A stretch of 64,000 nt of DNA from Phycisphaerales bacterium (GTDB lineage Bacteria; Planctomycetota; Phycisphaerae; Sedimentisphaerales; Anaerobacaceae): the NCBI GenBank assembly GCA_030602885.1, contig JAUVYV010000016.1, positions 1 to 64,000 of the forward strand, given 5' to 3'. This document shows, piece by piece, positions 10,660 to 48,478 of this stretch (positions within the stretch are counted from its first letter, which is position 1; every line of letters starts with the position of its first letter). The notes beneath the pieces are model-generated. The model made no database searches. It had not been told where the DNA came from and was given only the letters and a program-made list of their open reading frames with translations. A program made the translations under genes and the position numbers.

Positions 10660-10722
10660 TGGCAGTTAAAGGAAAGATCAGTTGCTAAAGCATAAGAAAT
10701 TTGAAATTTAAAGGAGGATGAA

Positions 10723-11286: not shown

Positions 11287-11317
11287 GACGGCCAAGAGCC
11301 AGTAACAGTTGGTTTTC

Positions 11318-11351
11318 AAGAGGCAAGTCATTTTGGCTTGCCTCTTTTTTT
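11318..11351 (+). terminator. Rho-independent terminator after PEP-CTERM gene
   Basis: A perfect 10-bp stem (AAGAGGCAAG with CTTGCCTCTT), 9-base loop, then a T run. It lies 32 bases after the stop codon of the 187-residue PEP-CTERM protein and separates it from the lipoprotein gene. Confidence 0.92.
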
Positions 11352-11413
11352 CTGGCTGAAAGGGGGAGAATCTGCTACAATTCGGCTGTATCGAGCTATG
11401 AGGATTGAATGAA

Positions 11414-29818: not shown

Positions 29819-30496
29819 CTAAAGTATCCTGCGTCTCCTTAGCCAGCCGACCAGGCCAACGCCGATACTGCCCAGCAGAATAGCGCCGGGTGCGGGTATG
29901 GTTACAAATTTCTCGCTGTAGTCATCTTCACCAAATCCACCAACGTGGATGCCGACTATTATTTGGCCGCTGTTTAGCCCAGCAATCACGTCATCGAATG
30001 TGCCATCGTGTGTAAAGACAACTCCCAGCCACTCGCCAGGCTGAACGCCATTGGCTGCTCCCGGGTCATTGTCAGCATCGCCCATAAGTTCATAGGCAGT
30101 CACAAGTTTAACAGAGCTTGTAAAACCGTTGGCGTTACTAGCATCTTCGGAGAAATCAACATCTGAATCGTTAGTCAAGCCTTCATAACTCTGGTCAGCA
30201 TCTACGAGAGAAGCGATTCCTAACAACACACCATCATAGAAGTACACTCCTCTAATAAAATACCTATCATAAGGTGCGGGAGAGCCTACTTCGTTATTAA
30301 ACTCGAAAAGTACCTCTCCGGAGGCAAACTCACTAACATCGACAGAGAGATATGTTTCTCCTACGGTGATGCTGGTACCAGTAGGGTCGTTGTTGGTAAC
30401 ACCGTAAAAACCGTAGGTGTATGTCACATTGGCCTGTGCAGGCATAGACAGTGAGCAAAGAAGCGCAAGAGCAAGATATAGAACTAACTTCTTCAT
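29819..30496 (-). CDS. PEP-CTERM protein, PAPGA-type tail (225 aa)
   Basis: An exported protein with signal peptide (MKKLVLYLALALLCSLSMPA) and an acidic, beta-rich body. The C-terminus PAPGAILLGSIGVGLVGW is followed by four arginines: the same three-part layout as PEP-CTERM (motif, membrane helix, Arg cluster) but with Pro-Ala-Pro-Gly. Such variant tails occur among exosortase substrates. GAAGG lies before ATG 30496, which I prefer to a frame extension upstream. It is second to the 243-residue gene with the same tail, separated by a long hairpin. Confidence 0.9.
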   Translation of the reverse strand: MKKLVLYLALALLCSLSMPAQANVTYTYGFYGVTNNDPTGTSITVGETYLSVDVSEFASGEVLFEFNNEVGSPAPYDRYFIRGVYFYDGVLLGIASLVDADQSYEGLTNDSDVDFSEDASNANGFTSSVKLVTAYELMGDADNDPGAANGVQPGEWLGVVFTHDGTFDDVIAGLNSGQIIVGIHVGGFGEDDYSEKFVTIPAPGAILLGSIGVGLVGWLRRRRIL

Positions 30497-30519
30497 AGAA
30501 TCACCTTCTTTCAAGCTTT

Positions 30520-30549
30520 CCAAGGGCAGGGCTACAGCCCTGCCCTTGG
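30520..30549 (-). terminator. Perfect 13-bp hairpin between the two PAPGA-type genes
   Basis: CCAAGGGCAGGGC and GCCCTGCCCTTGG flank a TACA loop. On the minus strand it is not followed by T residues, so it may be an attenuating or transcript-stabilising element that sets the ratio of the two PEP-CTERM products rather than a full stop. Confidence 0.6.
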
Positions 30550-30568: not shown

Positions 30569-31300
30569 TTATAGCGTCCTTCTTCTTCTCAGCCAGCCGA
30601 CAAGGCCTACACCAATGCTACCCAAGAAAATAGCACCAGGAGCAGGGATGGGGTTGACGGATTCGACCATGATTACAAGGTCTTGGTAATCCTGATCACC
30701 GCCATTCAAACTATCCTCCCAGCCTAACGCATACTCATTAGTTGTCCACAGGCCAGGCGACAAACCAGGGATTTGAATGGTATCAATATCCAAACCCTGG
30801 AGGGCGAGCATGTGGTCAAAACTGTCACCATTTAAGGCTGTATCGCTGTAAAACACGGCGGCGGGGTTGCCGCTACCAACGGTCGCATCCAAATAATATC
30901 CAAACAGATTTCCAGCAAAATCTGCAGAAGTATCCACTAAGTTCACAAAGACGCTCCCGTCCGCTTTTATGGACAAGACAGCCTGATCACCTTGAGTAGC
31001 TGAGCCTGCAAACACTTCGACACTGTTCGTATAATCCGCCGCATCATATATTCCAAATGTGCTAGTGCCGGCCCATCCCGCTATCTCAATAACAATAGTT
31101 GAACCACTTATGCCTGTCCCTGTAATGGACCAGAGTGAATCAAGCGAATCGGGGAGTGCATCTGTTGCTACAGTCACACTACTTACGCCTGGAACTGGTG
31201 CCAGAGTAATGCTATCCAACACGTTCTGTAGGGTAGGCTCAGCCAGAACCGGTGTAGCCATTAGCCCGACCAAAATGGTTATTAAAATTAACTTTTTCAT
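30569..31300 (-). CDS. PEP-CTERM protein, PAPGA-type tail (243 aa)
   Basis: Signal peptide MKKLILITILVGLMATPVLA, an acidic Ser/Thr/Asp-rich body (DUF-like, no recognised catalytic motif; contains NEYALGWEDSLNGGDQDYQD close to the tail) and C-terminus PAPGAIFLGSIGVGLVGW plus four arginines, nearly identical to the neighbour's. NGGDQDYQDLVIMVE is a pattern I associate with calcium-binding-like loops in PEP-CTERM proteins, but this is uncertain. ATG 31300 has AAAGGA about nine bases upstream. Probably processed by the exosortase encoded at 41351. Confidence 0.9.
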   Translation of the reverse strand: MKKLILITILVGLMATPVLAEPTLQNVLDSITLAPVPGVSSVTVATDALPDSLDSLWSITGTGISGSTIVIEIAGWAGTSTFGIYDAADYTNSVEVFAGSATQGDQAVLSIKADGSVFVNLVDTSADFAGNLFGYYLDATVGSGNPAAVFYSDTALNGDSFDHMLALQGLDIDTIQIPGLSPGLWTTNEYALGWEDSLNGGDQDYQDLVIMVESVNPIPAPGAIFLGSIGVGLVGWLRRRRTL

Positions 31301-33055: not shown

Positions 33056-36000
33056 TCAAGTTCCTCCACCAGACAACTGCTCAAGCAGCCGCTGTGCCTC
33101 GGTAAGGTCTTCGGCACCCAGAGCCGGAGATTCACTATTCAACTGCATACTTTTCCTGAGATTCTCAACAGCCTGCTGTTTCTGCCCGAGCTGCGCCAAA
33201 GCTCTTGCAAGGTGAAAATGTGAGGCCGCCAAGCTCGGTGTGCCGGTCGGATATAAGCCTATGCACTCAGTAAAGTCCTTCGCCGCCTTGTCAAACTGCC
33301 CAAGGTGGTAGTATGCGACACCTCTGGTATCGATAAGGTCAACATAGTCCGGCGCCTTTTCAAGCCCACGCCGGGCAAGTTCAAGCGCCCGTTGACACTG
33401 CCCTTGTTCTTCACAGAGTATCCACGCAAGATTGTTGATGGCGACCGAACTATCAGGCTGGAGCTCAAGAACCCGTTCGTACAACGTTACGGCTTCTGCC
33501 GAGCGCCCGGCGGCCTGGAGCAACATGCCAAGCTGCATCATTGCAAGCACGGAACCGGCGTCTCGACTCAAAACACCGCGCAGCAAGTCCTCGGCTATCT
33601 GTCCGGCCTCGCTGTCTTTAGCTCCGGCAAGCTCACCGACGATAAGGATAGTCGTTCGTATCTCACTGGGATGACCTTCACGCCAGATGGTAACCTTTTG
33701 GCGCAACCGGCTCCAGAGTTTGTCGTCCCGCAACAGTCTGACCTGCGCCAACAGCGGGCGGGGGTCGTTCGGCTCCGAATCGTACAACCCTTGTAGCATT
33801 TCCTCTGCCTCGGTCTTACTGCCGCTGTTATACAGCGCTGTGGCAAGAGCCAACTCGATCCTGCGCTGCTGCGACGCGTCTGCAGAAGAAGCGAGCTGCC
33901 TGCTGAGAAGATTTACTGCATCGTTATATTTATCCGCGGCCACGTATGCCTCAGCCAAAGAGACTACGGCATCTATGTCGTTGGGGTCGAGCTCCAGCAG
34001 GGCCCTCAGAGTCGGCAGCGCCAGCCGTGGCGACCTCGCCGCTTCGCCCCTGGCCTTTAGCAACAGCAGGGATTTATCATCAGGCCTGTGAACAAGACCA
34101 CGCAAGGCAACATCTATCACCTTCGCCGGTTTTGCCTCCTGCAAAGCAATTTGCGCCAGAAGCACCCAGGCCTGTCCAACCTCCGGGTGCTTTTCGGTTA
34201 TGGACTGAAGAGTACCTGTGGCCTGTTCTATGGCCGGAGCCGTCCCTTTTGCAAGCAACAACAGGGCTTTCTGAAGGCGTAGCTCCACATTTTCAGGATT
34301 GGCCTCCAGCGCTCTATCAAGAACCTGCTCGCCGGCTTGGCGTATCTGAGTATCGTCGGATGCCAGATAGAGAGAGACGGCGGCTTTTTGGATTTGTATG
34401 TTGGCCGGCATTAGAGATAGCGCCTGTCGTATGTCTGAAATTGCCCTGTCCGACTCGCCAAGCGAGCGGTGAAAAATGCTCATAGCAACCCAGGCATCCG
34501 CACTGTTGGGTTCCATCGTGACCGCCTGTTCAAAATCCCGTCTTGCCTTCTCGGCCCGGCCCAGTAAAGCACGTGTTCTGCCGCGCAGCAGATATGCAGT
34601 TGCAGTACCCAGCTTGTTTACCATTTCGTCACAAAGCAGCAAGGCCTCCTCAGGCGCGCCTACGCGAATGTTCAGATCGATCTGTGCCGCCATAACCGGC
34701 ACAGAATTTGGCTCTTCAATTCTCAGCCTGTTCACCAGTTCCTGCGCCTCGGCAAGCTTGTCCTGACGGATCTTGAGCAGTGCAAGGGACAGACACACGG
34801 AACGGTTGTTGGGGTCTTTGGCCAATATGTCCTCCAGGATATCATCTACAGAAGCGAGGTCGCCGCGCCTCAGGGAACTTTGCAGCTTCAGCCGTTCCAG
34901 TCCGGGATGGTAAAGCTTCGCTTTTGCCGCCTGTCTGAGAATTTCGTCCGCACGGTCATATTCAGCCGCCTCGTATAACGCTGCAACCAAAGGGACAATG
35001 ATGCGAATGTTCCGGGGCGAACGCTCGAAAGCCTCCGTGTAAGTTGAAACTGCCAGCCGAATCGCGCCGGCGCGCTCGTGAGTCGCAGCCAGAAGCATCC
35101 GACTGGTCTGATCATCAGGATTAGCAAGAAGATTCTCCTGGAGAAGCGGGGCGATTTGAGGATATCGACTTTTGAAATCCTCCTGGACAAACCAAACCCT
35201 TGCCTGTTCGTATCGCCACTGCCAGCCGTCATCGCCCTCGATGCTCCTGATGTTGTCAACGACTTGCTGGGCGCGGTCGGTGTCCCTTAGAACCTGCTCA
35301 CATGTCAATAACTTGCGCTGCACGATAAGATCGTCCTGTAGCTCTTTTGCAAGCGAGTCGAGCAGTGAATAACGCTTTCCGCCCTCATTCCAGCGACTGT
35401 AAATGTCGCTTAGCAGTAAGCCCAGTTCTCTTTTTGTGGAAGGCTGTCCTGCAGATGCGAGGGCATTGTTAACCAGATTCTCGCATTCCTGACGCTCTGC
35501 CTTTGTTGCCAGCAGGGCAACGAGATATCTTAGAACTGCTGTGGACTGCGGGAATTCTCCATGAGCCTGGCGTAGTCCTGCGATTGCGTCATCGGTTCTG
35601 CTCTGTGCAACGAGTAAGTCGGCTTCGGCCAAAGCGACCGTGATTTCGGCCGGATGCGTTTTCTTCAAATCGGCTAATAATTTTTCAGCGGCGGGCAAGT
35701 CGTCCCGCTGAACGGCAAGATGAAACTGCAACATTTTGACTTCGAAGGCGCCGTTAGTGGCTTCGTCGAGTTTATCCAGCGTCGCTTCTATATCACGATA
35801 TAACGCTGAATCCTTGTCTGTTTGGCTGCCTGCAAGCAATTGTAATCTCGCTCGGGCATCCAACAAATCTGCATCGCCGCTGCGCGGGTCAAGCTGCTTT
35901 GCCATACGAGCTTGTTCCGTTGCTTCAGCCCATTGACCTCTGTCGGCCAGCAGTCTCGCAAGGGCCATACGTGCGCTGAAAAGATTCGGTTGTTCTGAAA

Positions 36001-37231
36001 CGAGAGTCCGCAACTGATTGATGCCTGACTGCTTGTCACCAAGCCGCCATAGCGCATTGGCCAGTGCGATTTGGACCCTCGCAGATTTGGCCCCCAACTG
36101 AATTGCTCGACGCCAGCACTTGACAGCTTGGTAACTTTGCCCCTGGTTTTCAGCCAAAAGCCCCTCCAGAAAAGCTGTCGTCGCAGGAGCAATATCCTTT
36201 TGGCGCATCATAGAGATACACTCGCCGGCACGCTCATACCGGCCGCACCTGATAAACAGCTCCGCAGCATAGCGCATGAAATCCCAGGGTTGAGACGAGA
36301 GCTCTTTTAGTCCGGTCTCTGCAACTTGCAACAAACGATCGTCTGAGCTCGATTTAAGGGCAAGCTGCGCCCATAGCTGCCAAAGAAGCTGGTTGTCAGG
36401 CTCCAAAGTCTGAACAATCTCGAGCTGTTTCTGAGCACGGTCCAGAGCGTCCGCATTAATCAACTGCTCGGCAAGCCGAAGCCGTGCAGCCGAATCGGAC
36501 AAGTCCTTTTGTTCTGCCTGCGCCAAATCAGCCAACGCATCAGACTTGCTTCGTTGCCTTAGATAGTACGCTGCGCGAATAATGTAGGCCTCCGCCGACG
36601 ATGGGTTCGTCTTTACCGCCTGGTCGAACCAAAAATTAGGATCTTCGGAGAAGTCCTCAGGGCGCTGCTCAGCCAGCCGACCCAATACGTCATAGGCCGA
36701 TACCTGCTCGGGATTCTTCTCGATGAGACCTTTGAGCTCTTTCGCCGCCTCGGTGAATTTTCGCTGGTTTGCCAGGGCAATTGCCAAAATCCTTCTTAGT
36801 TCCGCTGACTCGCCTATTTGCAGTGATCGAGCAGCAATCAGCTCAGCTTCTCCAGGCATACCCATACTTAGATACATTTCACTGAGCTGCCTGGCGGCTT
36901 TAAGGCTGCTTTGGTCCAATCGCAAAACGTTTCTATATGCTGCTATGGCCTGCTGAACGTTACCGCGTTGCAGAGGTCTGATATTAAGCTGTGCCTCGGC
37001 ATACTTGAGCATGGCCGGCACATCATCCTGTACAACACCGAGATAACGGCCAAGCTGCTTTGCAGCTTCCTCCCATCTGTTCTCGTCATACGCCTTATTA
37101 CCGAGAAGAAGGCCCTGCTCTGCTCTCCTGCCACGTTGCCACTGCCTTACTCCGTACCCGGTCGCCCCCAGAACCAACAATCCCAGCAGAAGAACCAGTG
37201 CCAGTTTCCAGTTAAAGTACCTTCTTGCCAT
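33056..37231 (-). CDS. Large TPR protein of the exosortase/EPS locus (1391 aa)
   Basis: One N-terminal membrane helix (about residues 9-27, LALVLLLGLLVLGATGYGV) followed by more than 25 TPR-like helical pairs over the whole length. Clear examples are NPSSAEAYIIRAAYYLRQRS and PDSSVAINNLAWILCEEQGQ. Very long TPR proteins (for instance PrsT-type) accompany PEP-CTERM/exosortase loci and are thought to organise polysaccharide assembly; this one fits by position and architecture but I cannot claim the specific subfamily. No enzymatic domain. It probably extends into the periplasm. It follows the sugar-transferase gene by 34 bases. Confidence 0.88.
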   Translation of the reverse strand: MARRYFNWKLALVLLLGLLVLGATGYGVRQWQRGRRAEQGLLLGNKAYDENRWEEAAKQLGRYLGVVQDDVPAMLKYAEAQLNIRPLQRGNVQQAIAAYRNVLRLDQSSLKAARQLSEMYLSMGMPGEAELIAARSLQIGESAELRRILAIALANQRKFTEAAKELKGLIEKNPEQVSAYDVLGRLAEQRPEDFSEDPNFWFDQAVKTNPSSAEAYIIRAAYYLRQRSKSDALADLAQAEQKDLSDSAARLRLAEQLINADALDRAQKQLEIVQTLEPDNQLLWQLWAQLALKSSSDDRLLQVAETGLKELSSQPWDFMRYAAELFIRCGRYERAGECISMMRQKDIAPATTAFLEGLLAENQGQSYQAVKCWRRAIQLGAKSARVQIALANALWRLGDKQSGINQLRTLVSEQPNLFSARMALARLLADRGQWAEATEQARMAKQLDPRSGDADLLDARARLQLLAGSQTDKDSALYRDIEATLDKLDEATNGAFEVKMLQFHLAVQRDDLPAAEKLLADLKKTHPAEITVALAEADLLVAQSRTDDAIAGLRQAHGEFPQSTAVLRYLVALLATKAERQECENLVNNALASAGQPSTKRELGLLLSDIYSRWNEGGKRYSLLDSLAKELQDDLIVQRKLLTCEQVLRDTDRAQQVVDNIRSIEGDDGWQWRYEQARVWFVQEDFKSRYPQIAPLLQENLLANPDDQTSRMLLAATHERAGAIRLAVSTYTEAFERSPRNIRIIVPLVAALYEAAEYDRADEILRQAAKAKLYHPGLERLKLQSSLRRGDLASVDDILEDILAKDPNNRSVCLSLALLKIRQDKLAEAQELVNRLRIEEPNSVPVMAAQIDLNIRVGAPEEALLLCDEMVNKLGTATAYLLRGRTRALLGRAEKARRDFEQAVTMEPNSADAWVAMSIFHRSLGESDRAISDIRQALSLMPANIQIQKAAVSLYLASDDTQIRQAGEQVLDRALEANPENVELRLQKALLLLAKGTAPAIEQATGTLQSITEKHPEVGQAWVLLAQIALQEAKPAKVIDVALRGLVHRPDDKSLLLLKARGEAARSPRLALPTLRALLELDPNDIDAVVSLAEAYVAADKYNDAVNLLSRQLASSADASQQRRIELALATALYNSGSKTEAEEMLQGLYDSEPNDPRPLLAQVRLLRDDKLWSRLRQKVTIWREGHPSEIRTTILIVGELAGAKDSEAGQIAEDLLRGVLSRDAGSVLAMMQLGMLLQAAGRSAEAVTLYERVLELQPDSSVAINNLAWILCEEQGQCQRALELARRGLEKAPDYVDLIDTRGVAYYHLGQFDKAAKDFTECIGLYPTGTPSLAASHFHLARALAQLGQKQQAVENLRKSMQLNSESPALGAEDLTEAQRLLEQLSGGGT

Positions 37232-37265: not shown

Positions 37266-38999
37266 TCAGAACTGTCTCACAAAGTTCTTGGCCATCTTAA
37301 CGGCTGTCCGCCGGCATATCCACAAATCGAGTTTCAGTGACAGTTTCCTGACATACTTGACATCATAATAAATCCACTCTTGAAAATCCCTCATCGGCTG
37401 CCGCGTCCTGCAAACCTGCCAGAGTCCCGTGATACCGGGCCTGACGGACAGCCGAGCGTCCCGCCAGAACGGACATAACCTGTTTTCACTTTCAGGAGAC
37501 GGCCTCGGACCCACTACACTCATCTGCCCCAACATGACATTGATAAACTGAGGTATCTCGTCGATATACGTCTCACGCAAAAACCTCCCAACAGCGCTGA
37601 GGCGCGGGTCATTCACTACCATAAACTGGGGCCCGTCAGCCTCGTTCAAAACCCGAAGCCTGTCCTGCATTCTGTCGGCGCCAACCTGCATAGTTCTGAA
37701 CTTTAGACACTCAAACGTCCGACCGTGCAAGCCCTGTCGCACATCCCTGAAGAATATCGGCCCGGGAGAGGTCAGCTTTATGGCGAGCATGACTATCGGC
37801 AGAACAGGGGCAAACAGGATCAGCACAACTACCGCCACAACAATATCCAGAACCCTTTTCAAGAACCTCGCGTACGAGAATCTCGACCATTCTCGGAAAT
37901 TGTTCCGGCGCAAATCCTGTTGCGCACGGGTCGATTCCGGGCATGCCGCCGCACCTGCCGGCCGCGAGAGCTGATTTTCATCCCCCTGCGAATCCGTGAT
38001 AACCCTCTCTTCGATGAACGAACCGGCCTGCACTGACACACCGGGGCTAATAACAGATGCCCTTACCACGGCCCCGGTGCCGATTTTAACATCATTGCCG
38101 ACTATCGTCGGGCCAGCTATTATCGCGTCTTCATCGATGTTGACGCGTTTGCCAAGCAGTATCTTGCCGAATAACCCTGCACTGTCCGCTATGACAATAT
38201 CGTCGGCCTTGTTGTTACCACGCGAGTAGTCTGCACAGTAACGAGAGAGCCCTGCGCCGGAACCCAGTTTTCGCTGCACTAACCTCAGCAAACCATTTTC
38301 TGTAGCCAGATCCAGCACAGAACCTCCGACATCGGTGCTGCGCACGACGAGCGACTTTGAATAACATAGCTCAACTAACTTGCCGAACGCCAAAGGCAAA
38401 CCACCTTCCATCAAGAGCTTGTTCAGCGCGCTGGTCCTTACAAAGAGATGATGGGGCCAGTCATCGGGTATCGGAGTCGGCTGGGTTGCGTCTTCATAAA
38501 ACAACCGAAACCCAACAAAGTCGTTCTGCAAAGTGGTCAGAACCTTCTCGTACGAAGCTTGCATCTGAGCAACTATATTGACCGCTACCACATCCGCCTG
38601 ACTATCAGCGAGTGTCTCGCAGATTAGACGATTATCCACTGTCGTAACAAACCTTCCGTCTGAAATAACGACCCAGGAATGGTCGCGAAAAGGCCTTGTC
38701 GATTTGAAACCCACAGACAGGGGCTCCGTATAGCGGACAACATTCAACCTGCCCGTTACATCCGGGACGATCCACTGCTGCGGAATCGCTATCTTACCCC
38801 TGCCCCTGCGAAAGCCGGCACCGTCACTGAGACAGCCAAGAACGAAGCCGGCAAATGGCTCATTGCACACCATAAGTCGCAGCAGGTCGCGGCCACTTTT
38901 CGCCTGCCGGCCGCTCCTGTCGCGCAGAACAACCAGATTCCTGTTAACACGGGGTATAATTCTCATAACGCGTTTGTCTATAAGACAGTTAGCTGTCAC
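37266..38999 (-). CDS. Bacterial sugar transferase with N-terminal nucleotidyltransferase-like/LbH module (577 aa)
   Basis: The C-terminal ~200 residues (380-577) are a classic polyprenyl-phosphate hexose-1-phosphate transferase: membrane helix (IVVAVVVLILFAPVLPIVML), SPGPIFFRDVRQGLHGRTFE, KFRTMQ, DEIPQFINVMLGQMSVVGPR and the ending RPGITGLWQV. This adds the first sugar to the lipid carrier at the membrane. Unusually the N-terminal ~330 residues are a degenerate sugar-nucleotidyltransferase-like region (about 1-260) with a hexapeptide (LbH) stretch (IDEDAIIAGPTIVGNDVKIG, 288-307). Typical members have extra membrane helices there instead. It overlaps the Wzc-like gene by 4 bases (ATGA) and is translationally coupled. 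Confidence 0.92.
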   Translation of the reverse strand: MTANCLIDKRVMRIIPRVNRNLVVLRDRSGRQAKSGRDLLRLMVCNEPFAGFVLGCLSDGAGFRRGRGKIAIPQQWIVPDVTGRLNVVRYTEPLSVGFKSTRPFRDHSWVVISDGRFVTTVDNRLICETLADSQADVVAVNIVAQMQASYEKVLTTLQNDFVGFRLFYEDATQPTPIPDDWPHHLFVRTSALNKLLMEGGLPLAFGKLVELCYSKSLVVRSTDVGGSVLDLATENGLLRLVQRKLGSGAGLSRYCADYSRGNNKADDIVIADSAGLFGKILLGKRVNIDEDAIIAGPTIVGNDVKIGTGAVVRASVISPGVSVQAGSFIEERVITDSQGDENQLSRPAGAAACPESTRAQQDLRRNNFREWSRFSYARFLKRVLDIVVAVVVLILFAPVLPIVMLAIKLTSPGPIFFRDVRQGLHGRTFECLKFRTMQVGADRMQDRLRVLNEADGPQFMVVNDPRLSAVGRFLRETYIDEIPQFINVMLGQMSVVGPRPSPESENRLCPFWRDARLSVRPGITGLWQVCRTRQPMRDFQEWIYYDVKYVRKLSLKLDLWICRRTAVKMAKNFVRQF

Positions 39000-41302
39000 A
39001 AAACCGAATCATCCGGTTTTTGCCCGGGTTTATCCATAGGCAGTAACAAAGGTCGTCCGGCGGCGTTTCTGGCGCTTTGTGCCGCGCGCCCGCCCTGCGC
39101 ATGATAGTCGTATCCATAACGGTAGTAACTATGGCTGACTGGAACGTTGCTTAGGACAGTTCCCAGTATTCTCACACCTATCTCAGAAAGTCTCTCCTTT
39201 GTCTCTTTGAGGTCCGGCGAGGTCGTATGGCCGGCAAAACCCGTCAGTATGACAGCACCTGCCATCTTCGCCCACAAAAGGGCGTCGGGAAATGCCAGCA
39301 CGGGCGGGCTGTCAATAATCACGTGATCGTACTTCTCGCCAATTTTGTCTATCTGCTTCGCCGCCTGAGGTGAAGCCAACAACTCATAAGGGTCGGTCGA
39401 ACTGTGCGAATCCGCTGCAAGCACATGCAAACCGGCGGAAGACACAACACAGACAGCATCCTCAAGTAGTGTGCTTCCTGAAAGTACATCCTGCAGATAT
39501 CTTGAGTCTCTCGGAATGTCCAGCAGACGTCCAATATCAGGTTTTCTCAGGTCGCCATCTACGAGCAGTACCTTCTTGCCGGACCTGGACAGACTTGTGG
39601 CAAGGTTAATGGCAAATGTGGTTTTGCCGTCGCGCATACTCGGACCGGTAACAACCAGTTTCTCAGGCATCCCTCCACCGTCGAGCAATCCGAGGTTGGC
39701 ACGAATTGTCTGATAGTCCTCGGCCATCTGTCTTGAGAAAAGAGCTTTCTTACCCGTTTGCAGGCTTGTGGTGGTACCGATTATCCGAATTCCAATACGT
39801 CTGACCACATCCTCAGGAGTGTGCACGCTAAGATCCGCTTTGTCCCTTAGAATAGCTGCAACCACTCCGCAGGCCAGCGCGCCAAATACAAGAGCCATAG
39901 TGTACTTGACTCGTTTATCCCGAACGCTGGCAATATCCGCATTATAGGCAATGGAAACCCGCGCAGGACGCTTTCGTTCCATTTCCAATTCCTGTATGCG
40001 CCGCCCCATCGTACCATAAAGCTCTTTCGTTGAAGCCAACTGGTCTTCAATCTCGTCGATAGCCAACTGCTTTCGTCCAAGCTCCACTGTCTGCGTATCC
40101 TCCTTTGCCAGTATTTCCCGAAGCCGGTTCTCATAAGCCAGCGTCTGCTTGAGCTGCAGTCGTGCACCGGTCAGCTTCTCGTTGTTGACCTTATCCACCT
40201 GCTTAGACATCCGCTCGTCGAACTTCTTGCCCACCTCCCGGCGTTTCTCGTCGAGTCGCAATTGGAATGCCTTTACGAACTCCTGTTTCTGCAGCAGCAG
40301 AGGGTTGCCCTGCACCATCATCTGTCCGGAAAGAATCTGGTCCTGCTCCAGCTGCGCCAGTTGCCTGGTTATCTCCTGCACGGTAATGTCCGCGTTTATG
40401 TATTCCTCACGCATCCTCATTAGCTCATCCGGCGGCGAACTCGGCTTGTTCTCCTCAAGCAGCTTAATCTGTGTCTCCAGATTCATCCTTTTCGCTTCCG
40501 CCTTTGTCAGTTCGCCCAGCAAACTCGATACACGCTGCAGCATCATATCGTGCCGGCCGTCCAGCGTAACGCTTCCATACTCCTGACCAAGCTGCCCAAT
40601 CGCCTCTCGCTGGTTCTCGAGTTTCTCGGCCAGGACCTTCCGCTCATTCTCAAGAACGGTCAGTTTTTGACCTTGCCCCCGCAGAGAACTGGCGACTTCG
40701 ACGAGCATATATGCCTGAATAAAAGCATCTACAATCCTCTTTGCTTCTTCCGGTTTGTCGCTTTTGGCCGTAACTTTTACCAGTTCGGTATTACGAATAG
40801 CAGCAGACGTGATTATGCCGTCGTATTTCGCCTGTTTCAGTATGTTTGCCGGATCGGGCTTGGTCTTGGTGTTCTCCAGTTTGCGTCTCAACTTCGCACC
40901 AATGCCGCTGGCCTGGTCTTCAAAAAATGTCAGATTCTTGCCTGCCAAATCATCTGCCACCCTTTGGACTACCTGTGGGCTGAGAATCATTTCCGCCTGC
41001 GTATTCATGAAGCTTTGGTAATTCGATATTTCGCCCTTGTCCGCCTCGCCGGTCAGGATATTCGACAGAATGGGAGCAACTTTTATTGCACCGGTCACAT
41101 CATACAAAGGATCAATCAACAACCATATTGCAGGAATTCCGATCGCGCACATTACAAGGAACGTAATCGCCACAATGTACCAGCGGCGAAGCACAGCAGC
41201 GGCCAACGCTGATGTGGAATCACTTGCGGACTCGGGGGGCATTTCAAAATTAGCTGGGCTGCGTTCAATCAACTCGCCATCATACTTTTCTATAGTGTTC
41301 AT
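38996..41302 (-). CDS. Chain-length determinant / tyrosine autokinase (Wzc-like, 768 aa)
   Basis: A polysaccharide co-polymerase fused to a bacterial tyrosine kinase. Two membrane helices (about 40-62 and 478-497) flank a long periplasmic coiled-coil region (about 200-440). The cytoplasmic kinase has a Walker A (GPSMRDGKTTFAINLATSLS), Walker A' (VLLVDGDLRKPDIG) and Walker B (HVIIDSPPVLAF). The C-terminus carries a tyrosine cluster (SYYRYGYDYHAQ) for autophosphorylation. It controls chain length and export, normally with a Wza-type lipoprotein such as the one at 26508. Spacing to the upstream exosortase gene is 48 bases. Confidence 0.94.
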   Translation of the reverse strand: MNTIEKYDGELIERSPANFEMPPESASDSTSALAAAVLRRWYIVAITFLVMCAIGIPAIWLLIDPLYDVTGAIKVAPILSNILTGEADKGEISNYQSFMNTQAEMILSPQVVQRVADDLAGKNLTFFEDQASGIGAKLRRKLENTKTKPDPANILKQAKYDGIITSAAIRNTELVKVTAKSDKPEEAKRIVDAFIQAYMLVEVASSLRGQGQKLTVLENERKVLAEKLENQREAIGQLGQEYGSVTLDGRHDMMLQRVSSLLGELTKAEAKRMNLETQIKLLEENKPSSPPDELMRMREEYINADITVQEITRQLAQLEQDQILSGQMMVQGNPLLLQKQEFVKAFQLRLDEKRREVGKKFDERMSKQVDKVNNEKLTGARLQLKQTLAYENRLREILAKEDTQTVELGRKQLAIDEIEDQLASTKELYGTMGRRIQELEMERKRPARVSIAYNADIASVRDKRVKYTMALVFGALACGVVAAILRDKADLSVHTPEDVVRRIGIRIIGTTTSLQTGKKALFSRQMAEDYQTIRANLGLLDGGGMPEKLVVTGPSMRDGKTTFAINLATSLSRSGKKVLLVDGDLRKPDIGRLLDIPRDSRYLQDVLSGSTLLEDAVCVVSSAGLHVLAADSHSSTDPYELLASPQAAKQIDKIGEKYDHVIIDSPPVLAFPDALLWAKMAGAVILTGFAGHTTSPDLKETKERLSEIGVRILGTVLSNVPVSHSYYRYGYDYHAQGGRAAQSARNAAGRPLLLPMDKPGQKPDDSVL

Positions 41303-41350: not shown

Positions 41351-43333
41351 TCACCGTCTGATTATAACTGTTTCTTGTTTCACCGGGGCCGTTGTCAGTT
41401 TTGCCAAAAGCCAGAGTTCACCAACTACTATCGCAAGGGCCAATGGCATCATTGCATATCCCCCGAAGTCATGAAATATCTTCTCCCAATGTTCCCCCTT
41501 AAGTATCGTAAAAGCAACCGCAGTGATTGCCAGGCGCACGGTGTTACAGAGCAGAGCAATGGGCAGGCTGGAAGCGAAGACCATCAGCTTCTCCCACCAC
41601 ACGCGCTCGACGAGCAATACCACAAGACCGCTAATCACAAAGAACGCAGTGATCATCCTCAATCCATTGCACGCCTCCGCCACCGCAACCGTTGCATCAC
41701 CGATATGAATGATATTACCTTCCCGCACAACTTCGTAGCCCATCACCTCCAGACAGAACATCGCAGATGACGTCGCCCAGCTCTGTAGAGGCAGCGCGAC
41801 AGCAGCTTGAACCCGATTTGGCCAGGGTAACATCAGCAACAGGAACAACATTATGGGAGATACTTTTCGGAAAAGTTCCCAGCCAAACAGAAGCAAGACC
41901 AATGCGGCAATACTCAAAACAATTGATAGCCTCTCTGCGGAACCATACATAAAGAACAAGCCGAAGAGTCTCACCGCCTGAGCCGCCACAAACGCAAACA
42001 AACCCCAAATTGCAGGCCCTATTCGAACTCGGCGAATGTCGCCGCGCCTCGACCACAGGATATAACCAGCCAGAAAAGGAACTAAAAGCCCGGAAGAATA
42101 CTCGTCACTCCTCTGGCATATGCTCCACAGGTCCACAATGCCAGGCCAGTATGACCAAAGAAAAGCAATTACGATTAGCGCGGCTGCGAACCAGCGAAAG
42201 ATTCTTTTTTTCTCCGCGCACATACATTGTGGCAATCTTCTGCTTACCCTGTCCAACTGAGGTACGAGCCGGGATTGCAATCTGCCGGCCCCTTCTTCCA
42301 CTATCCTTGACATTCTACCGACAAAGCTCTCCAACTTTCCTTTCGGCTGGAACGCGACAGGTTTTCCCTCCACGACGCTATTACCTGGCACAACCGCCTG
42401 GTAATCAACCACACATCGTTGAATCTCGCAGTTCTCGCCTATCTGCGAATCGTCCCAAAGAACGCTATTGGCTATGAGACTATTCTTTCCGATATTTGTG
42501 TTGCGGCCAATTATTGTTGGTCCAAAAATAACTGCTCGGTCTGAAATATTAGCTCCATCCATAATTACAGCCGGCCCATAAATTCGAGCACCTGGGTCGA
42601 CCTCGGCGCTATCGGCCAGCCAGATATCTTTTGAGCCGTTTAGCTTTTTACGGTGAAAGCCTATGCTTTCATCGCTGCAGTTTGCCAGATAGTTTGCAAT
42701 AGCATCCAAATATCCGGCTCTGTCTCGAAAGTTTCCTGTGGGCTGAGTCAGCGTCGCGGTGTGTATGGTTCTGCCTGCCCGCAGCATTGTGGGAATCAGG
42801 CCTTCCTTGATATCGCAGTAACCTTGCTTGGGAATATACTCAAGGACGGAAGACTCACAAACATAAATGCCTGACATGGCATCTTGCGTACCGTCGCTTC
42901 CAGGGCCGGGGCCAAGCACAACTGTTAAATCAGACTTGCCGGCTCGGTGGGCTCGTATGAGCTTGTCAATATCCGGCACAGATACAATCGCAGCATGGAA
43001 CACTACGAACAAAGCATTTGTCTGGCCGTTAGCGGCGTCTCGGACACATCCGGCGGTGCCGACCGGTAATGGTTCATCCAGGAACTTTAATTGCATCGAA
43101 CTCACCGTGGTGATGGATTTTTTCAGCAGTAGAGCATCTTCATTGGAACAAACAGTTGCCTGCTTTATCCCCTGACGGGATAAATGACGCAACAGATGTT
43201 CAATAACTGGCCTGCCTGCCACCGGCCACAGTGCTGTAGGCAAACGCGATGCCAGAGGACACCTGCCAAAATCCCGACTCCCCGCCAGTATAATAGCTTT
43301 AACGTTTTGTTTATTTATGCGTTGCTTACTCAT
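41351..43333 (-). CDS. Exosortase fused to degenerate nucleotidyltransferase-LbH module (660 aa)
   Basis: The C-terminal part (about 380-645) is an exosortase, the multi-pass cysteine protease/transpeptidase that processes PEP-CTERM tails. It has the catalytic triad in family context: Cys555 (VAEACNGLRM), Arg600 (ALLCNTVRL) and His621 (IFHDFGGYAM), among about eight membrane helices. The N-terminal part resembles NDP-sugar pyrophosphorylases (residues 10-225) plus hexapeptide repeats (240-325, IIGRNTNIGKNSLIANSVLW). Key catalytic features are changed: the usual LPK of the signature is LPT (residues 31-33) and the metal-binding Asp segment reads FVVFHAAIVS (109-118). The module is thus probably inactive and may bind sugar-nucleotide or partner proteins (inference). 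Free-standing exosortases lack this part. Confidence 0.92.
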   Translation of the reverse strand: MSKQRINKQNVKAIILAGSRDFGRCPLASRLPTALWPVAGRPVIEHLLRHLSRQGIKQATVCSNEDALLLKKSITTVSSMQLKFLDEPLPVGTAGCVRDAANGQTNALFVVFHAAIVSVPDIDKLIRAHRAGKSDLTVVLGPGPGSDGTQDAMSGIYVCESSVLEYIPKQGYCDIKEGLIPTMLRAGRTIHTATLTQPTGNFRDRAGYLDAIANYLANCSDESIGFHRKKLNGSKDIWLADSAEVDPGARIYGPAVIMDGANISDRAVIFGPTIIGRNTNIGKNSLIANSVLWDDSQIGENCEIQRCVVDYQAVVPGNSVVEGKPVAFQPKGKLESFVGRMSRIVEEGAGRLQSRLVPQLDRVSRRLPQCMCAEKKRIFRWFAAALIVIAFLWSYWPGIVDLWSICQRSDEYSSGLLVPFLAGYILWSRRGDIRRVRIGPAIWGLFAFVAAQAVRLFGLFFMYGSAERLSIVLSIAALVLLLFGWELFRKVSPIMLFLLLMLPWPNRVQAAVALPLQSWATSSAMFCLEVMGYEVVREGNIIHIGDATVAVAEACNGLRMITAFFVISGLVVLLVERVWWEKLMVFASSLPIALLCNTVRLAITAVAFTILKGEHWEKIFHDFGGYAMMPLALAIVVGELWLLAKLTTAPVKQETVIIRR

Positions 43334-44010: not shown

Positions 44011-44508
44011 TTATTTTGCTCCTTGATTTTTGCTCGATAGATTTAAAAACGTGGCTATTCTATCAGCAACTATCTTTGTCTGTTTTTCTCTTGGCTGAGG
44101 TACAAAAGATTTCAATTGTTTGATCTTCTCCGGTATTTCGTCTTCTGTGTTCGCAACTAATATATGTCCGAGTTCCTCAAACTTTCGTGCAATAGCAAGC
44201 TGATGATCATTTACCACCTCTCCATACTTTTTTAATCTTGGCATAACAAGCAGTGGCTTCTTGTTATCCAATGCCATCGTTATCGTACCAATCCCAGCGT
44301 GGCTGATTATACCTGATGCTTCTTTCAAGTATTTATCAAACGCTTTCTTCTCTATAGATGCCACTGATTCAAAGTTGCGTGGCTGATATGAACTGTCGCC
44401 GATTTGCGCAAATATCTCCTCTTCAAACCCGTTCTGGCTGATTATATCATCAACCGATTTTACCAGACGATCAAATGGAAATTGAGTTCCAACAGTCAGA
44501 AAAATCAT
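44011..44508 (-). CDS. Alg13/PssE-like glycosyltransferase subunit (165 aa)
   Basis: The catalytic half of a two-subunit GT28-type glycosyltransferase. The N-terminus MIFLTVGTQFPFDRLVKSVD and the block SHAGIGTITMALDNKKPLLV are the family's hallmarks (the nucleotide-sugar site). It overlaps the Alg14-like gene by 4 bases, the arrangement seen for PssD/PssE pairs. Together they add a sugar (in known pairs GlcNAc or glucuronic acid) to the lipid-linked precursor on the cytoplasmic side of the membrane. Confidence 0.92.
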   Translation of the reverse strand: MIFLTVGTQFPFDRLVKSVDDIISQNGFEEEIFAQIGDSSYQPRNFESVASIEKKAFDKYLKEASGIISHAGIGTITMALDNKKPLLVMPRLKKYGEVVNDHQLAIARKFEELGHILVANTEDEIPEKIKQLKSFVPQPREKQTKIVADRIATFLNLSSKNQGAK

Positions 44509-44978
44509 ATCACCGCACCGGCATATTCAACATTTTTATATTGCTCAGCAAGCTCAGGCCACTGAACCAGAAAAAGGTCAGATATATGCCTGACTATTCT
44601 CCCTGAAAGAGATATCTGCTGCACATTGGCAATACTATCAATCCAAATCACTTTTGCACCTGTGATTTTACCTAAGAAACAAACCATACAACCCGGGGCA
44701 GCACCTGTACTGAACAGCACATCAGGCCTTTCTCGCAAAACAATCCTGATACATCGAAACAACACCTTTACCACTCGTATCGGATGGTTTCGATTGCACT
44801 CTCCAATAACATATACTTTGCCATATTGCTCAAGTCTCTTTCGGGCAACCTCCGTTGTCGTCACGCAAAAAGTGCCATATCCATTCCAGCTATCAGAAAG
44901 CTTAAGTAATTGTGTCAGATGTCCACCAGCAGAGGCAGCAAGACAGATTTTTATCTGCTTCTTAGTCACTAATTCCAA
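44505..44978 (-). CDS. Alg14/PssD-like glycosyltransferase subunit (157 aa)
   Basis: The membrane-recruiting partner of the Alg13-like protein. The start IKICLAASAGGHLTQLLKL contains the AGGHL signature; VLFSTGAAPGCMVCFLGKIT and WIDSIANVQQISLSG follow in the usual order. The start is uncertain: TTG 44978 and GTG 44969 are both in frame, and both lie inside the last codons of the upstream glycosyltransferase. Coupled translation is likely. Length is normal for the family. Confidence 0.92.
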   Translation of the reverse strand: MELVTKKQIKICLAASAGGHLTQLLKLSDSWNGYGTFCVTTTEVARKRLEQYGKVYVIGECNRNHPIRVVKVLFRCIRIVLRERPDVLFSTGAAPGCMVCFLGKITGAKVIWIDSIANVQQISLSGRIVRHISDLFLVQWPELAEQYKNVEYAGAVI

Positions 44979-46161
44979 TACCCTTCAAATTCACATCTTC
45001 ACTGAACAATTCACTTAATATCATTTGTGCCTTACTTTCCCATGAGGCCTGTTTTACTTTATCACGTCGGGCAGTAACTTTTTCCGAGCAATCCTCAAGT
45101 AGAGCCTGTTTAATCCTTTCTGCAAATTCTTTAGAATTTTCAGCAAGATATATTACTTCCAAATATCTTTGGGCCTCAGAAAAATATGGTGTACACACCA
45201 ATGGTTTACCTAAAGCCAGATATTCTTTAATTTTTATCGGATTAGAAGCTTCGGTCCAACGATTATTCGCCCATGGTAAAATGGCAACATCAAAACACTT
45301 GCCATAGTCAGGTATTTGGTAATAATCTTTTTGGCCTAATTTCCAAACATTCTTCAAATCAAATAATGAATCGTACTCTTCATGAACCGTTCCAATAAAC
45401 ACAAAAGACATCTCCGGCAATATTTTTGCTACTTCTTCAACTAATGCAATATCAAAACTATGATCATAAATTGCACCAAAATATCCAACTATCGGTAATG
45501 GTATATCAGCAATATCACTAGGAGTGTTTTTGACTTCCTTAGCTGAAGCAAATAATTCATAATCAACACCATGGTCCAGAAATAATGGTTTTCGACACTG
45601 GCCAGATTCATCCTCGTACAATTTTGTGTTTACAAAAATCGTTAAATCTGCTTTGGATTTCAACAAATGGTCGCAACGTTTAATAACATTCACATCAACT
45701 CCATCTGCCTCTTCAAACCTGTCTGTTCTTTGATATACCAAAGCTCTTTTCTGCAACTTTATCGCCACATCTACTGCCGCAGGGTTTGCAACTAATACTA
45801 CTGGGTTCTTTATACCCAATCTCCATGAGACCACCTTTATCTGCATGTATAGAATAACATCATTTAGATACTTCGCCCATCTGATATGATGAACAGGCAA
45901 TGAAAAAGGACTATACACCCAAAATCCTTCTTCAGTCTTTTTGAGGCCTGCAAAAATACTTTTTAGCTTACGAACCGCTTTTTTGAAAAAGGCACCTTTT
46001 TCACCTGTAGTAAACTTTGTCATTATAATGGAATTGATGTATAAAGTTTTACCGCACTTAGCAAACTGCCTAGCCAACTGTGGATCTATATGTGCGCGAT
46101 TGTGGTACCACCAGTCGATGCCGCCAAAAATCATATAAGGAACAGCTTTTTGAGATTTCAT
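44962..46161 (-). CDS. Glycosyltransferase, GT4/GT1-like (399 aa)
   Basis: A GT-B fold glycosyltransferase of the exopolysaccharide locus. It starts KAVPYMIFGGIDWWYHNRAH and has the C-terminal donor-binding pattern NPIKIKEYLALGKPLVCTPY, which corresponds to the E-x7-E region in a relaxed form. No membrane segment. It overlaps the Alg14-like gene by 17 bases and follows the CapK-like gene by 10 bases. Donor and acceptor cannot be inferred. The N-terminal motif resembles teichuronic-acid/TuaH-like transferases but I am not confident of that. Confidence 0.85.
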   Translation of the reverse strand: MKSQKAVPYMIFGGIDWWYHNRAHIDPQLARQFAKCGKTLYINSIIMTKFTTGEKGAFFKKAVRKLKSIFAGLKKTEEGFWVYSPFSLPVHHIRWAKYLNDVILYMQIKVVSWRLGIKNPVVLVANPAAVDVAIKLQKRALVYQRTDRFEEADGVDVNVIKRCDHLLKSKADLTIFVNTKLYEDESGQCRKPLFLDHGVDYELFASAKEVKNTPSDIADIPLPIVGYFGAIYDHSFDIALVEEVAKILPEMSFVFIGTVHEEYDSLFDLKNVWKLGQKDYYQIPDYGKCFDVAILPWANNRWTEASNPIKIKEYLALGKPLVCTPYFSEAQRYLEVIYLAENSKEFAERIKQALLEDCSEKVTARRDKVKQASWESKAQMILSELFSEDVNLKGIGISD

Positions 46162-46171
46162 TCAAACCCTC

Positions 46172-47521
46172 CTACAGGCGATCGACCTGTCCTTCTATTT
46201 TAGACAGAACAGGCTTGAGCCTGCCACAATCTGTTTTCTTGACTATTTTAACCTTTTTAAAGTCAACTTTTAGTTCGCCAGGTAGATGTTTGGCTATCAA
46301 AGATTTAAAGTTGTTCATATCCTGTACAGAAAAGTTTTCGGTTGGCACATATTGTATTGTGATATGGCCTAAAGTATCCTGGACTATCTGGCTTTCAAGT
46401 ATATGATCTGTACCATATAACAAATGCGTTAGAATCGCTGCACCAAATTCTCTTCCAGACGGTGTTCTAATTGAATCGGCTTGTCTGCCACTTATGGATT
46501 TGATTACCTGAAATTGCCTTCCACAGGAGCAACTTTCCTCTGATTTCACTACTATATCACCCGTGTCATACCGAACAAACGGCATGGCATAATTCCAAAA
46601 GCCACTGGAAACTATTCTGCATATGTTCCTGTTTAAACTATCCACAGGTATAAGCTCAGTGAGGCCGTATTCAGGAATGATATGATAGCTTCCTCTTTCA
46701 CATGTAAAGATATAGCATATCCTTTCTGCACCGCCATAAAAATCAAACACTTTGCAATTGAATGCTTCGACTATGGTTTTACGCATCGAATCTGTCAGTG
46801 TTTCTGAAGAGGTTAGGGTCGACTTCAATTCGAGTTCAATGCCAGCATCCAAACATGTTCTGGCTAACAAATATACTGCCGATGGGTACCCAACTACAGC
46901 CTTAACTCTGTATTTTTTCATCACCATTGCGAAATTCTTAGCAGACTTTGACGAAAGGTGATAAGTAGAAAGAATCAATTCTTTCATGATCGGATCATAG
47001 GCATACAATTTGTTAGCTTTCTGGTCTGGTTTCACCACCAATCTGCCGGTAAGATAAGCACAACGATCGTTAAATCCTATATTTGCCCAATCCCATTGTC
47101 GCCGAACAAAGGCGTGTTCATTTCCGATTGAAAACAGGTTTCGATAAATACGCATCGGTGTACCTGTTGTCCCTCCAGTATAAGCCTTCCGTAATAGTAG
47201 CTTTGGATATCTTTTTGAAAGGATTGAGTCACCAGCTCCTAACACATTTCTCTTGCTGATTATCGGAAACCTATTAATGTCTTCAAGAGATTTAATATCC
47301 TCGGGTGCAATTCCCAACCTGTCCATAATTTGCCTGTAGTAAGGTACTGAATCGTAGCAGTGCCTAATAAGTCGCTGCAATAAATTCAGTTGTATCTGCC
47401 TTATTTGCTTATCGCTTAACCATTGTGACTTTTCCAACCATTTTCGCCGTAGCCAGAATGGCCCGGCAAAACGCCTGACGGCCAGATTCAACATTCCGCT
47501 TGATATTACTTTAAGATTCAT
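46172..47521 (-). CDS. CapK/PaaK-like adenylate-forming enzyme (449 aa)
   Basis: Belongs to the phenylacetate-CoA-ligase-like family, often named CapK in capsule loci. Visible: the AMP-binding P-loop YTGGTTGTPMRIYRN (about 114-128), DFYGGAERICYI and YDTGDIVV with CSCGRQFQVI, the metal-ligand cysteines. Members activate carboxylic acids as adenylates; in polysaccharide loci they are thought to attach acyl or amino-acid groups to sugars. No companion acyl-carrier gene is seen here. Start ATG 47521 follows the GT2 gene by 15 bases. Confidence 0.9.
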   Translation of the reverse strand: MNLKVISSGMLNLAVRRFAGPFWLRRKWLEKSQWLSDKQIRQIQLNLLQRLIRHCYDSVPYYRQIMDRLGIAPEDIKSLEDINRFPIISKRNVLGAGDSILSKRYPKLLLRKAYTGGTTGTPMRIYRNLFSIGNEHAFVRRQWDWANIGFNDRCAYLTGRLVVKPDQKANKLYAYDPIMKELILSTYHLSSKSAKNFAMVMKKYRVKAVVGYPSAVYLLARTCLDAGIELELKSTLTSSETLTDSMRKTIVEAFNCKVFDFYGGAERICYIFTCERGSYHIIPEYGLTELIPVDSLNRNICRIVSSGFWNYAMPFVRYDTGDIVVKSEESCSCGRQFQVIKSISGRQADSIRTPSGREFGAAILTHLLYGTDHILESQIVQDTLGHITIQYVPTENFSVQDMNNFKSLIAKHLPGELKVDFKKVKIVKKTDCGRLKPVLSKIEGQVDRL

Positions 47522-47536
47522 ATGGCTAACATTGTT

Positions 47537-48478
47537 TTACCAGTACTTTACGCCCACAAAAAACACTCTTCTTATACCAGTCAAATAGATTCGCGATCTG
47601 TCAAGGGCCTGCTTTCTTTTTTTGCCATTAATGATTGCTATAGCAAGCCAGATAGGAATGCGAATCACAAAAAACATAATCGTTAGGAAACAAGCAACCT
47701 TATATTTCAACCAGCCGTGATGTTTTTGTATAAACTTCAAAATGCTCAAACGTAGTTCAATCAACATCTTCCCAGATACCTGAGCCGTGCTTTGTCCGCC
47801 AAAATGAATAATCTCACCCACCGGAGCAAATCTGATATCCCAGCCAGCCAGCCGGAAACGATAGCACCAGTCGGCCTCTTCGGCATACATAAAAAATTCT
47901 TCATCCATCAACCCTACCTGGTCAATCGCTGCACGTCGAACAAGCATAAAACATCCCTTGATTGCCTCTACGCTTATTTCTTCATCGAAATTGCACCAAG
48001 TCATCCATTGCCTGCCGAAAAAACGACTCTTTGGAAAAAGCTTATGTAAATAGGAACTTGAGAGGAACATATTCAGCAAAGAGTCATACATAAAGCAGGA
48101 CCGCTGCAATGTTTTATCCGGGTTCAACACTCGACAGCCCACCACCGCTACTTCCGGATACATATCGGTAAAATCAACCACTTTTTCAATCGCCTTATCC
48201 AGCACAATTGTATCGCTGTTCAGCAGCAGCACATACTTGCCCTTGGCAATCTTTATCCCTTGATTATTCGCGGCGGCAAAGCCACGATTGTCATTATTTT
48301 CTATAAGAATCACATTGGGAAAATCACGCTTGAACACCTCAACTGAATCATCAGAAGAGGCGTTATCAATCACAATCACTTCGCAATTGTTTTTTCCCGG
48401 CTGACTATATATTGACCTCAAACAATCACAGATAATCTGCTGTGTATTCCAGTTGACTATTATAATTGAAACCTGCAA
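47537..48478 (-). CDS. Glycosyltransferase family 2 (313 aa)
   Basis: GT-A fold transferase related to rhamnosyltransferases. It starts SIIIVNWNTQQIICDCL, has the nucleotide-sugar/metal motif LLNSDTIVLD and the later EEADWCYRFRLAGW acceptor-side block. The C-terminus has one or two hydrophobic segments (YKVACFLTIMFFVIRI) that may attach it to the membrane. It follows the polymerase gene by 10 bases. Confidence 0.93.
   Translation of the reverse strand: MQVSIIIVNWNTQQIICDCLRSIYSQPGKNNCEVIVIDNASSDDSVEVFKRDFPNVILIENNDNRGFAAANNQGIKIAKGKYVLLLNSDTIVLDKAIEKVVDFTDMYPEVAVVGCRVLNPDKTLQRSCFMYDSLLNMFLSSSYLHKLFPKSRFFGRQWMTWCNFDEEISVEAIKGCFMLVRRAAIDQVGLMDEEFFMYAEEADWCYRFRLAGWDIRFAPVGEIIHFGGQSTAQVSGKMLIELRLSILKFIQKHHGWLKYKVACFLTIMFFVIRIPIWLAIAIINGKKRKQALDRSRIYLTGIRRVFFVGVKYW

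Follow-up and report, generated by a model that had tools for sequence, protein, structure and literature searches.

Genes at the locus

The window, a 64,000-nucleotide stretch of DNA, contains a gene for a priming sugar transferase and a gene for an exosortase, and each protein begins with a pseudo-pyrophosphorylase module (Table 1). The exosortase-type module is referred to here as module A and the transferase-type module as module B, and the complete transferase is abbreviated B-PGT. The transferase reading frame opens with a GTG codon that overlaps the stop codon of the Wzc-like gene upstream. Codon 12 is an ATG, and the start in most relatives is near codon 20.

Table 1. Features of the transferase, Wzc-like and exosortase genes in the window
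Feature	Coordinates	Strand	Basis
Priming sugar transferase with N-terminal pseudo-pyrophosphorylase module (B-PGT), 577 aa	37266..38999	-	ORF and translation, Pfam
Phosphoglycosyl transferase domain (Bac_transf), residues 376-577, Asp-Glu dyad D480-E481	37269..37874	-	Pfam, invariance, 8t53 fold match
Module B left-handed beta-helix (LbH), residues 264-336, ~3.5 coils	37992..38210	-	LbH_EIF2B and Hexapep, AlphaFold2 strands
Module B degenerate nucleotidyltransferase (GT-A fold), about residues 17-262	38214..38951	-	hhalign, AlphaFold2, VIA-align
Wzz/Wzc-like chain-length determinant with kinase-type ATPase, between the genes of both modules	38996..41302	-	Pfam AAA_31 1.6e-13, Wzz 0.0025
Exosortase with N-terminal pseudo-pyrophosphorylase module (A), 660 aa	41351..43333	-	Pfam
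Exosortase domain, residues 389-643	41405..42169	-	Pfam 2.4e-55
Module A LbH, residues 236-326, ~5 coils	42356..42628	-	Pfam, AlphaFold2
Module A degenerate nucleotidyltransferase, residues 11-232	42638..43303	-	NTP_transferase 2.5e-10, fold match

The neighbouring genes fit a Wzx/Wzy-type exopolysaccharide operon. Glycosyltransferase genes lie at 44965-46161, 47540-48478, 49815-50834, 50892-51773, and 51776-52804. The gene at 52755-54047 codes for a deacetylase-like protein, and the one at 54073-56280 for a flippase-like protein. Two proteins of 449 and 433 amino acids, encoded in the operon at 46175-47521 and 48492-49790 (reverse strand), had no Pfam match at 1e-4 and are candidates for the missing Wzy polymerase. 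Two short open reading frames of 165 and 157 amino acids at 44011-44978 (reverse strand) form a pair that we take to resemble a split Alg13/Alg14-type glycosyltransferase. Directly downstream of the transferase is a gene for a 1391-residue TPR-repeat protein (33056-37231, reverse strand); among its Pfam matches listed (25 families), nearly all are to TPR or similar repeats. Two small proteins encoded at 29819-30523 and 30569-31300 (reverse strand) have near-identical C-termini of 24 letters, which we take to be PEP-CTERM-like. Both are presumably exosortase substrates. That PEP-CTERM sorting genes lie near polysaccharide genes has been noted since 2006 (PMC1569441).

The priming transferase

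The C-terminal part of the transferase is apparently an ordinary, intact phosphoglycosyl transferase. Bac_transf (PF02397) was matched at residues 381-569 (E 1e-57), and D480 and E481 are invariant in 25 of 25 transferase homologues. Its fold match in VIA-align is WbaP of Salmonella (PDB 8t53; residues 367-571, Z 14.6, rmsd 3.0, 34% identity over 161 aligned residues). The catalytic domain and the Asp-Glu dyad make the protein a monotopic phosphoglycosyl transferase, with the reentrant helix placed by hydropathy only.

The catalytic domain is thus shared with the WbaP/WcaJ-type enzymes, whereas the N-terminal half is unrelated to theirs and is instead the pseudo-pyrophosphorylase. TIGR03025, the family model of the WcaJ/WbaP type, covers the transferase with profile positions 254-439 of 445 only (score 239.6, cut-off 295.55). 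By this model and by hydropathy, the N-terminal membrane helices and the DUF of the large enzymes are absent. The initial annotation stated that usual members have membrane helices where the module sits. The transferase has no TM-type hydropathy window in residues 1-375.

Module B

Residues 1-348 of the transferase were confirmed to be a degenerate nucleotidyltransferase of the GT-A fold followed by a left-handed beta-helix. The LbH can be recognised by Pfam. LbH_EIF2B was matched at residues 264-336 (E 2.4e-6) and Hexapep at residues 282-313 (E 1.5e-5), both below the curated cut-off for a single sequence. Among 25 transferase homologues searched with Pfam, Hexapep was found in 25 and LbH_EIF2B in 23. 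NTP_transferase was matched in none of the 25, and neither Pfam nor NCBIfam gave a nucleotidyltransferase family match in residues 1-240. The nucleotidyltransferase identity of module B rests for this reason on profile comparisons and on structure.

Alignments of 47 transferase N-termini and 32 exosortase-type N-termini were compared with hhalign. Module B matched module A over the whole module at 99.5% (E 2.9e-23, 223 colinear columns) with an overall identity of 17%. The LbH by itself matched at 99.7% (E 2.5e-25), and the nucleotidyltransferase part alone matched weakly (36%, E 4e-4). Six mismatched-domain control pairs gave 0.1-0.3%. A profile of two intact nucleotidyltransferases matched the nucleotidyltransferase part of module B at 85% (E 6e-6, 145 columns). 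In that alignment the Gly-Asp, Tyr-Gly, Glu-Lys, and Asp-Ile-Gly stretches of the intact enzymes are paired with stretches that are conserved in module B. When the module B profile was compared with the sequences of solved structures, the best-scoring stretches were in or beside the LbH.

The AlphaFold2 model of the transferase (mean pLDDT 73.9, mostly ~90 in the LbH) has a GT-A topology followed by ~3.5 LbH coils. Residues 12-348 were matched by VIA-align to chains of eIF2B, VTC1, GMPPA/GMPPB, and AGPase with Z from 16.9 to ~15, over 274-298 aligned residues and with rmsd 5.4-8.2 A. The matches at Z 16-17 place 276-296 residues with rmsd 5.5-6.6 A. In the model, these large values may reflect another angle between the two domains.

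The diverged nucleotidyltransferase-like region and LbH that the initial annotation had read before the WcaJ-type domain are therefore borne out by profiles and by modelled structure alike. The profile-profile comparison with the exosortase fusion, which it had proposed as a check, extends over the whole module. Neither an unrelated fold nor a lack of hexapeptide coils, the outcomes it had named as refuting, was found.

Module A and the exosortase

In the partner protein, Pfam matched NTP_transferase at residues 12-146 (E 2.5e-10), LbH_EIF2B at 236-323, and Exosortase_EpsH (PF09721) at 389-643 (E 2.4e-55). C555, R600, and H621 are invariant in 26 of 26 sequences. With PF09721 and the invariant Cys, Arg, and His, the protein is an exosortase of the EpsH type. 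A second, unfused exosortase with an open frame of 331 amino acids is present in the same genome (G000:C122:97955-98743).

Residues 11-331 were matched by VIA-align to VTC1 and GMPPA/GMPPB chains with Z 31 and rmsd 2.9 A. The best match of the module A profile among solved sequences is tlr0611 (PDB 8x7s, annotated as UTP-glucose-1-phosphate uridylyltransferase), with E 1.5e-37 and colinear over the nucleotidyltransferase and the LbH. Both modules have the architecture of an NDP-sugar pyrophosphorylase, in which a GT-A nucleotidyltransferase is followed by an LbH.

Loss of catalytic residues and retention of the cleft

Active-site positions were counted in 45 distinct A and 49 distinct B sequences, among which are some close relatives and edge-truncated proteins. 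The pyrophosphorylases have a GxGTR loop with a catalytic Lys and a metal-binding Asp in a Gly-Asp pair. In module A the position of the Lys is occupied by Thr, Arg, Leu, and others, and by Lys in 0 of 45. Asp is present at the metal position in 1 of 45 A sequences. At the equivalent position of module B there is Arg in 36 of 49 and Asp in 1 of 49. The GxGTR, Lys, and Gly-Asp motifs that module A has lost are kept by tlr0611. Modules A and B are both, as predicted from these residues, catalytically dead pyrophosphorylases.

The one B sequence with Asp belongs to a Humisphaera transferase (L029, 7604-9427), in which the metal site of module B retains Asn-Gly-Asp. It may represent a stage in evolution from an active pyrophosphorylase to module B.

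Other positions are under constraint in both modules. In module A, G92, G95, D174, K176, E177, and Y208 are invariant in all 45 sequences. In module B, P182 and G278 are present in 49 of the 49 sequences, G226 in 48, E151 in 47, and R166 in 46. The transferase of the window has Leu at position 166 and Arg at position 165. The sugar- and metal-side columns of module B hold 3.27 bits vs 1.86 elsewhere (p 4e-7), and its base loop (1.32 bits) and PPi loop (1.19 bits) are unremarkable, the latter being the counterpart of the GxGTR loop and not conserved. In module A the base loop holds 3.50 bits vs 2.13 elsewhere (p 0.001) and the DIKE motif 4.07 bits, and nothing stands out at the PPi and metal sites. 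The p values serve as description only, because the choice of columns was made with the alignment already in view, and the mapping of module B depends on the 85% hhalign match. By these columns, decay has affected opposite sides of the cleft in A and B, with the base loop kept in A and the sugar- and metal-side columns kept in B.

The sugar-contacting hairpin of module A (T137-Y157) has been shortened to 16-26 residues in 44 of 45 sequences, vs 42 residues in the intact enzyme L151 as counted by eye. The difference in length can also be seen where the module A profile is aligned with solved sequences. Module A thus cannot bind an NDP-sugar in the usual way.

Joint presence of the two modules

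Among 99 related genomes, B was found in 55 and A in 53. Both were found in 51, A only in 2, B only in 4, and neither in 42. The Fisher p value for this co-occurrence is 8e-21, a figure inflated by common descent and by the genes sharing an operon. Since the two genes are neighbours and are inherited together, the count indicates joint maintenance and not interaction. For 46 of the 58 places with B, module A was found 3.4-6.9 kb away on the same contig (median 4.4 kb). In four of the six one-sided genomes (G013, G026, and G041 with B only, and G086 with A only) the pair is cut by a contig end. The single-contig genome G035, which has a fused A-exosortase and no B-transferase, is a real exception to the pairing. 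In this genome the A-exosortase fusion is accompanied by a 451-residue Wzc-like protein that lacks the ATPase part (L089, 6964-10344).

The titles of 41 of the 42 loci found in the contig collection name Planctomycetota or groups therein, and L028 is titled 'uncultured bacterium'. In a sample of the phylum, 201 of 392 genomes were matched by the B profile at E 0.001. Nearly all the matches listed were to the LbH only, and this raw count was set aside because most of them are LbH cross-matches. At least eight of the 392 genomes (G000, G063, G065, G073, G077, G081, G131, and G174) have a match that runs from before profile position 50 to past 300. The pairing of A and B is real and old. The initial annotation had pointed out that two membrane enzymes with no other relationship carry similar degenerate modules in one operon, and these modules are homologous by hhalign and are kept together far beyond the genome in which they were noticed.

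The exosortase, however, is not a fixed part of the arrangement, and in this respect the earlier description of modules on two membrane enzymes has to be narrowed. Of the 52 A modules placed in a tree, 40 carry an exosortase fusion, 10 stand alone, and 2 are cut. The fused or free state requires 7 changes on this tree, at least 4 of which are forced by well-supported branches. In L090 (G014), L091 (G020), L029, and L030 the gene order is free A, Wzc-like, and B-transferase with no exosortase match between, and these genomes have exosortases elsewhere. L096 and L145 have A and the exosortase as adjacent but separate genes. In L032, L042, and L043 a free A is immediately followed by a transferase. 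In L156 the free A is immediately followed by an LbH-bearing transferase, and no Wzc gene separates them. The exosortase is thus dispensable, and module A often exists as a protein of its own, whether or not the operon includes an exosortase. As A is free in many loci yet remains beside the transferase, the unit kept by evolution is A with the B-transferase and not exosortase with transferase. The conserved partner of A looks like the priming transferase.

In L098 (G093) the exosortase is also a separate gene, beside an A module with a long low-complexity insertion. The insertion in this module (10513-11880) consists of repeated AGSKKQ/AENEQV units and is located in the loop after the shortened hairpin. 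The separate exosortase gene ends in similar repeats.

Distant transferases and the LbH

Thirteen distant transferases (L032-L044) have an N-terminus homologous to the GT-A-like part of module B (97.7%, E 1.5e-12 by hhalign). No LbH was found in any of the 13, as judged by Pfam for 10 of them, by reading of the sequences, and by comparison with the LbH alignment (0.2%). These N-termini did not match module A in hhalign (1.1%). Since the distant transferases have no LbH, pairing of LbH with LbH cannot be the general contact between the proteins.

Trimerisation through the LbH, which had been suggested at first, is not supported by the closest structural relatives. These are GMPP and VTC1, which pair via their LbH as dimers (PMC9168903). 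Only ~3.5-5 coils are present in the two modules. A trimeric hexapeptide acyltransferase would have a long LbH that forms a trimer, with an acyl-CoA site between the subunits; the LbH of the transferase has only ~3.5 coils.

Comparison with known systems

Among the closest known systems are GMPPA/GMPPB and KJC1/VTC1. GMPPA is a dead pyrophosphorylase copy that pairs via its LbH with its active sister, and the plant protein KJC1 raises the activity of VTC1 (PMC9168903). The likeness consists of a nucleotidyltransferase with an LbH (Z 16 for B and 31 for A) and of a dead member that is kept with a partner, LbH pairing being a feature of the known complex. Modules A and B are, by prediction, dead copies kept with a partner copy in the same manner. 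Unlike in those systems, both members look dead here, both are fused to membrane enzymes, and the pair contains no active pyrophosphorylase.

The epsilon and gamma subunits of eIF2B were the top VIA-align matches of module B (Z 16.9), and LbH_EIF2B is the best Pfam match of its LbH. In eIF2B a degenerate pyrophosphorylase fold serves regulation. It differs in being a eukaryotic translation factor with no transferase or exosortase fusion. Monotopic phosphoglycosyl transferases fused to a sugar-enzyme or regulatory domain have reportedly been described, which is a likeness to B-PGT. In the titles and abstract openings of the open-access papers searched, no exosortase or priming transferase was found described with a module resembling a pyrophosphorylase.

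Among the large priming enzymes, the N-terminal DUF of WbaP binds uridine nucleotides, is thought to sense them, and holds the dimer, and UMP inhibits the whole enzyme (PMC10942596). In Myxococcus, a partner protein thought to promote dimerisation activates one priming enzyme (PMC12802240). According to the introductions of the same two papers, the control of undecaprenyl phosphate commitment to exopolysaccharide is largely open.

Possible function of the pair

That A and B share a function, either by forming a complex or by sensing a ligand, is the most economical reading. It is about evenly balanced whether they make up a hetero-oligomeric sensor of a nucleotide or NDP-sugar that gates the phosphoglycosyl transferase, a reading that draws on the systems above. 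On this reading, A and B are catalytically dead NDP-sugar pyrophosphorylases of the eIF2B/GMPP/tlr0611 type, and B stands where WbaP and other large monotopic transferases have their TM and DUF half. Module A would bind B via LbH and/or GT-A faces, as GMPPA does with GMPPB. What remains of the two former active-site clefts would hold a nucleotide or NDP-hexose, and the ligand would most likely be of the uridine type, which is favoured by the tlr0611 match of module A. The ligand-bound complex could then switch the intact transferase on or off, so that undecaprenyl phosphate would be committed only when the precursor is available. As A is fused to the exosortase in most genomes, the PEP-CTERM sorting enzyme would be held at the polysaccharide initiation complex. 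The fold of the modules, their descent from a common source with the pyrophosphorylases, the lost catalytic residues, and the joint conservation are shown and speak for this reading, as do the persistence of A apart from the exosortase, the conserved cleft residues, and the precedent of WbaP. Speaking against it are the share of common descent in the co-occurrence, the lack of an LbH in the 13 distant transferases, the exception G035, and the shortened hairpin of A.

The main rival is that the modules are scaffolds only. Module B would replace the membrane-anchored dimerisation half and hold a homodimer, and A would do likewise for its own protein, with no A-B contact and no ligand. The WbaP-like large transferases are dimers held mainly by the N-terminal domain (PMC10942596), and the absence of TM-type hydropathy from module B, the unconserved base and PPi loops, and the genome that keeps A without B (G035) are all consistent with such a role. 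It is nevertheless judged rather unlikely. It leaves unexplained the near-perfect joint presence (51 genomes with both vs 6 one-sided among 99), the survival of A next to B where A has no exosortase, and the fact that residues of the former cleft are strongly conserved in A as well as in B. That conservation also counts against the modules being relicts, old fused enzymes that decayed in place and now serve only as linkers. The low identity between A and B and the loss of the LbH in the distant transferases could be expected of a relict, but across divergent sequences six positions of A are invariant and P182, G226, and E151 of B are invariant or nearly so, and the pair has been maintained in 51 of 99 genomes from several families. 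This explanation is very improbable.

The reading with the least probability, and one that was rejected, is that a module is an active enzyme which makes an NDP-sugar or acylates a sugar as substrate for the transferase in cis. It could appeal to the overall pyrophosphorylase fold of both modules and to the one Gly-Asp pair retained in L029. Against it are the loss of the catalytic Lys and metal Asp in A and of the metal Asp in B, the unconserved PPi loop of B, the shortened hairpin of A, and the four further NTP_transferase-bearing places in the genome of the window. With the sensor reading as the preferred one, a more specific form of it can also be proposed, although it is speculative and unlikely. 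The base loop and DxKE of A and the sugar and metal side of B might form one split ligand site, or a two-part UDP/sugar readout, in a hetero-oligomeric sensor that licenses priming. It could also couple matrix-protein sorting to initiation via the A-exosortase fusion.

The priming enzyme of this organism appears to bear a dead copy of the class of enzyme that makes its substrate, and a second dead copy is present on the enzyme that sorts matrix proteins. If A and B sense the precursor together, they would solve, in a second way that arose independently, the problem for which WbaP has its DUF, in parallel to GMPPA and eIF2B of eukaryotes. If true, this would also tie PEP-CTERM sorting directly and physically to the initiation of polysaccharide synthesis.
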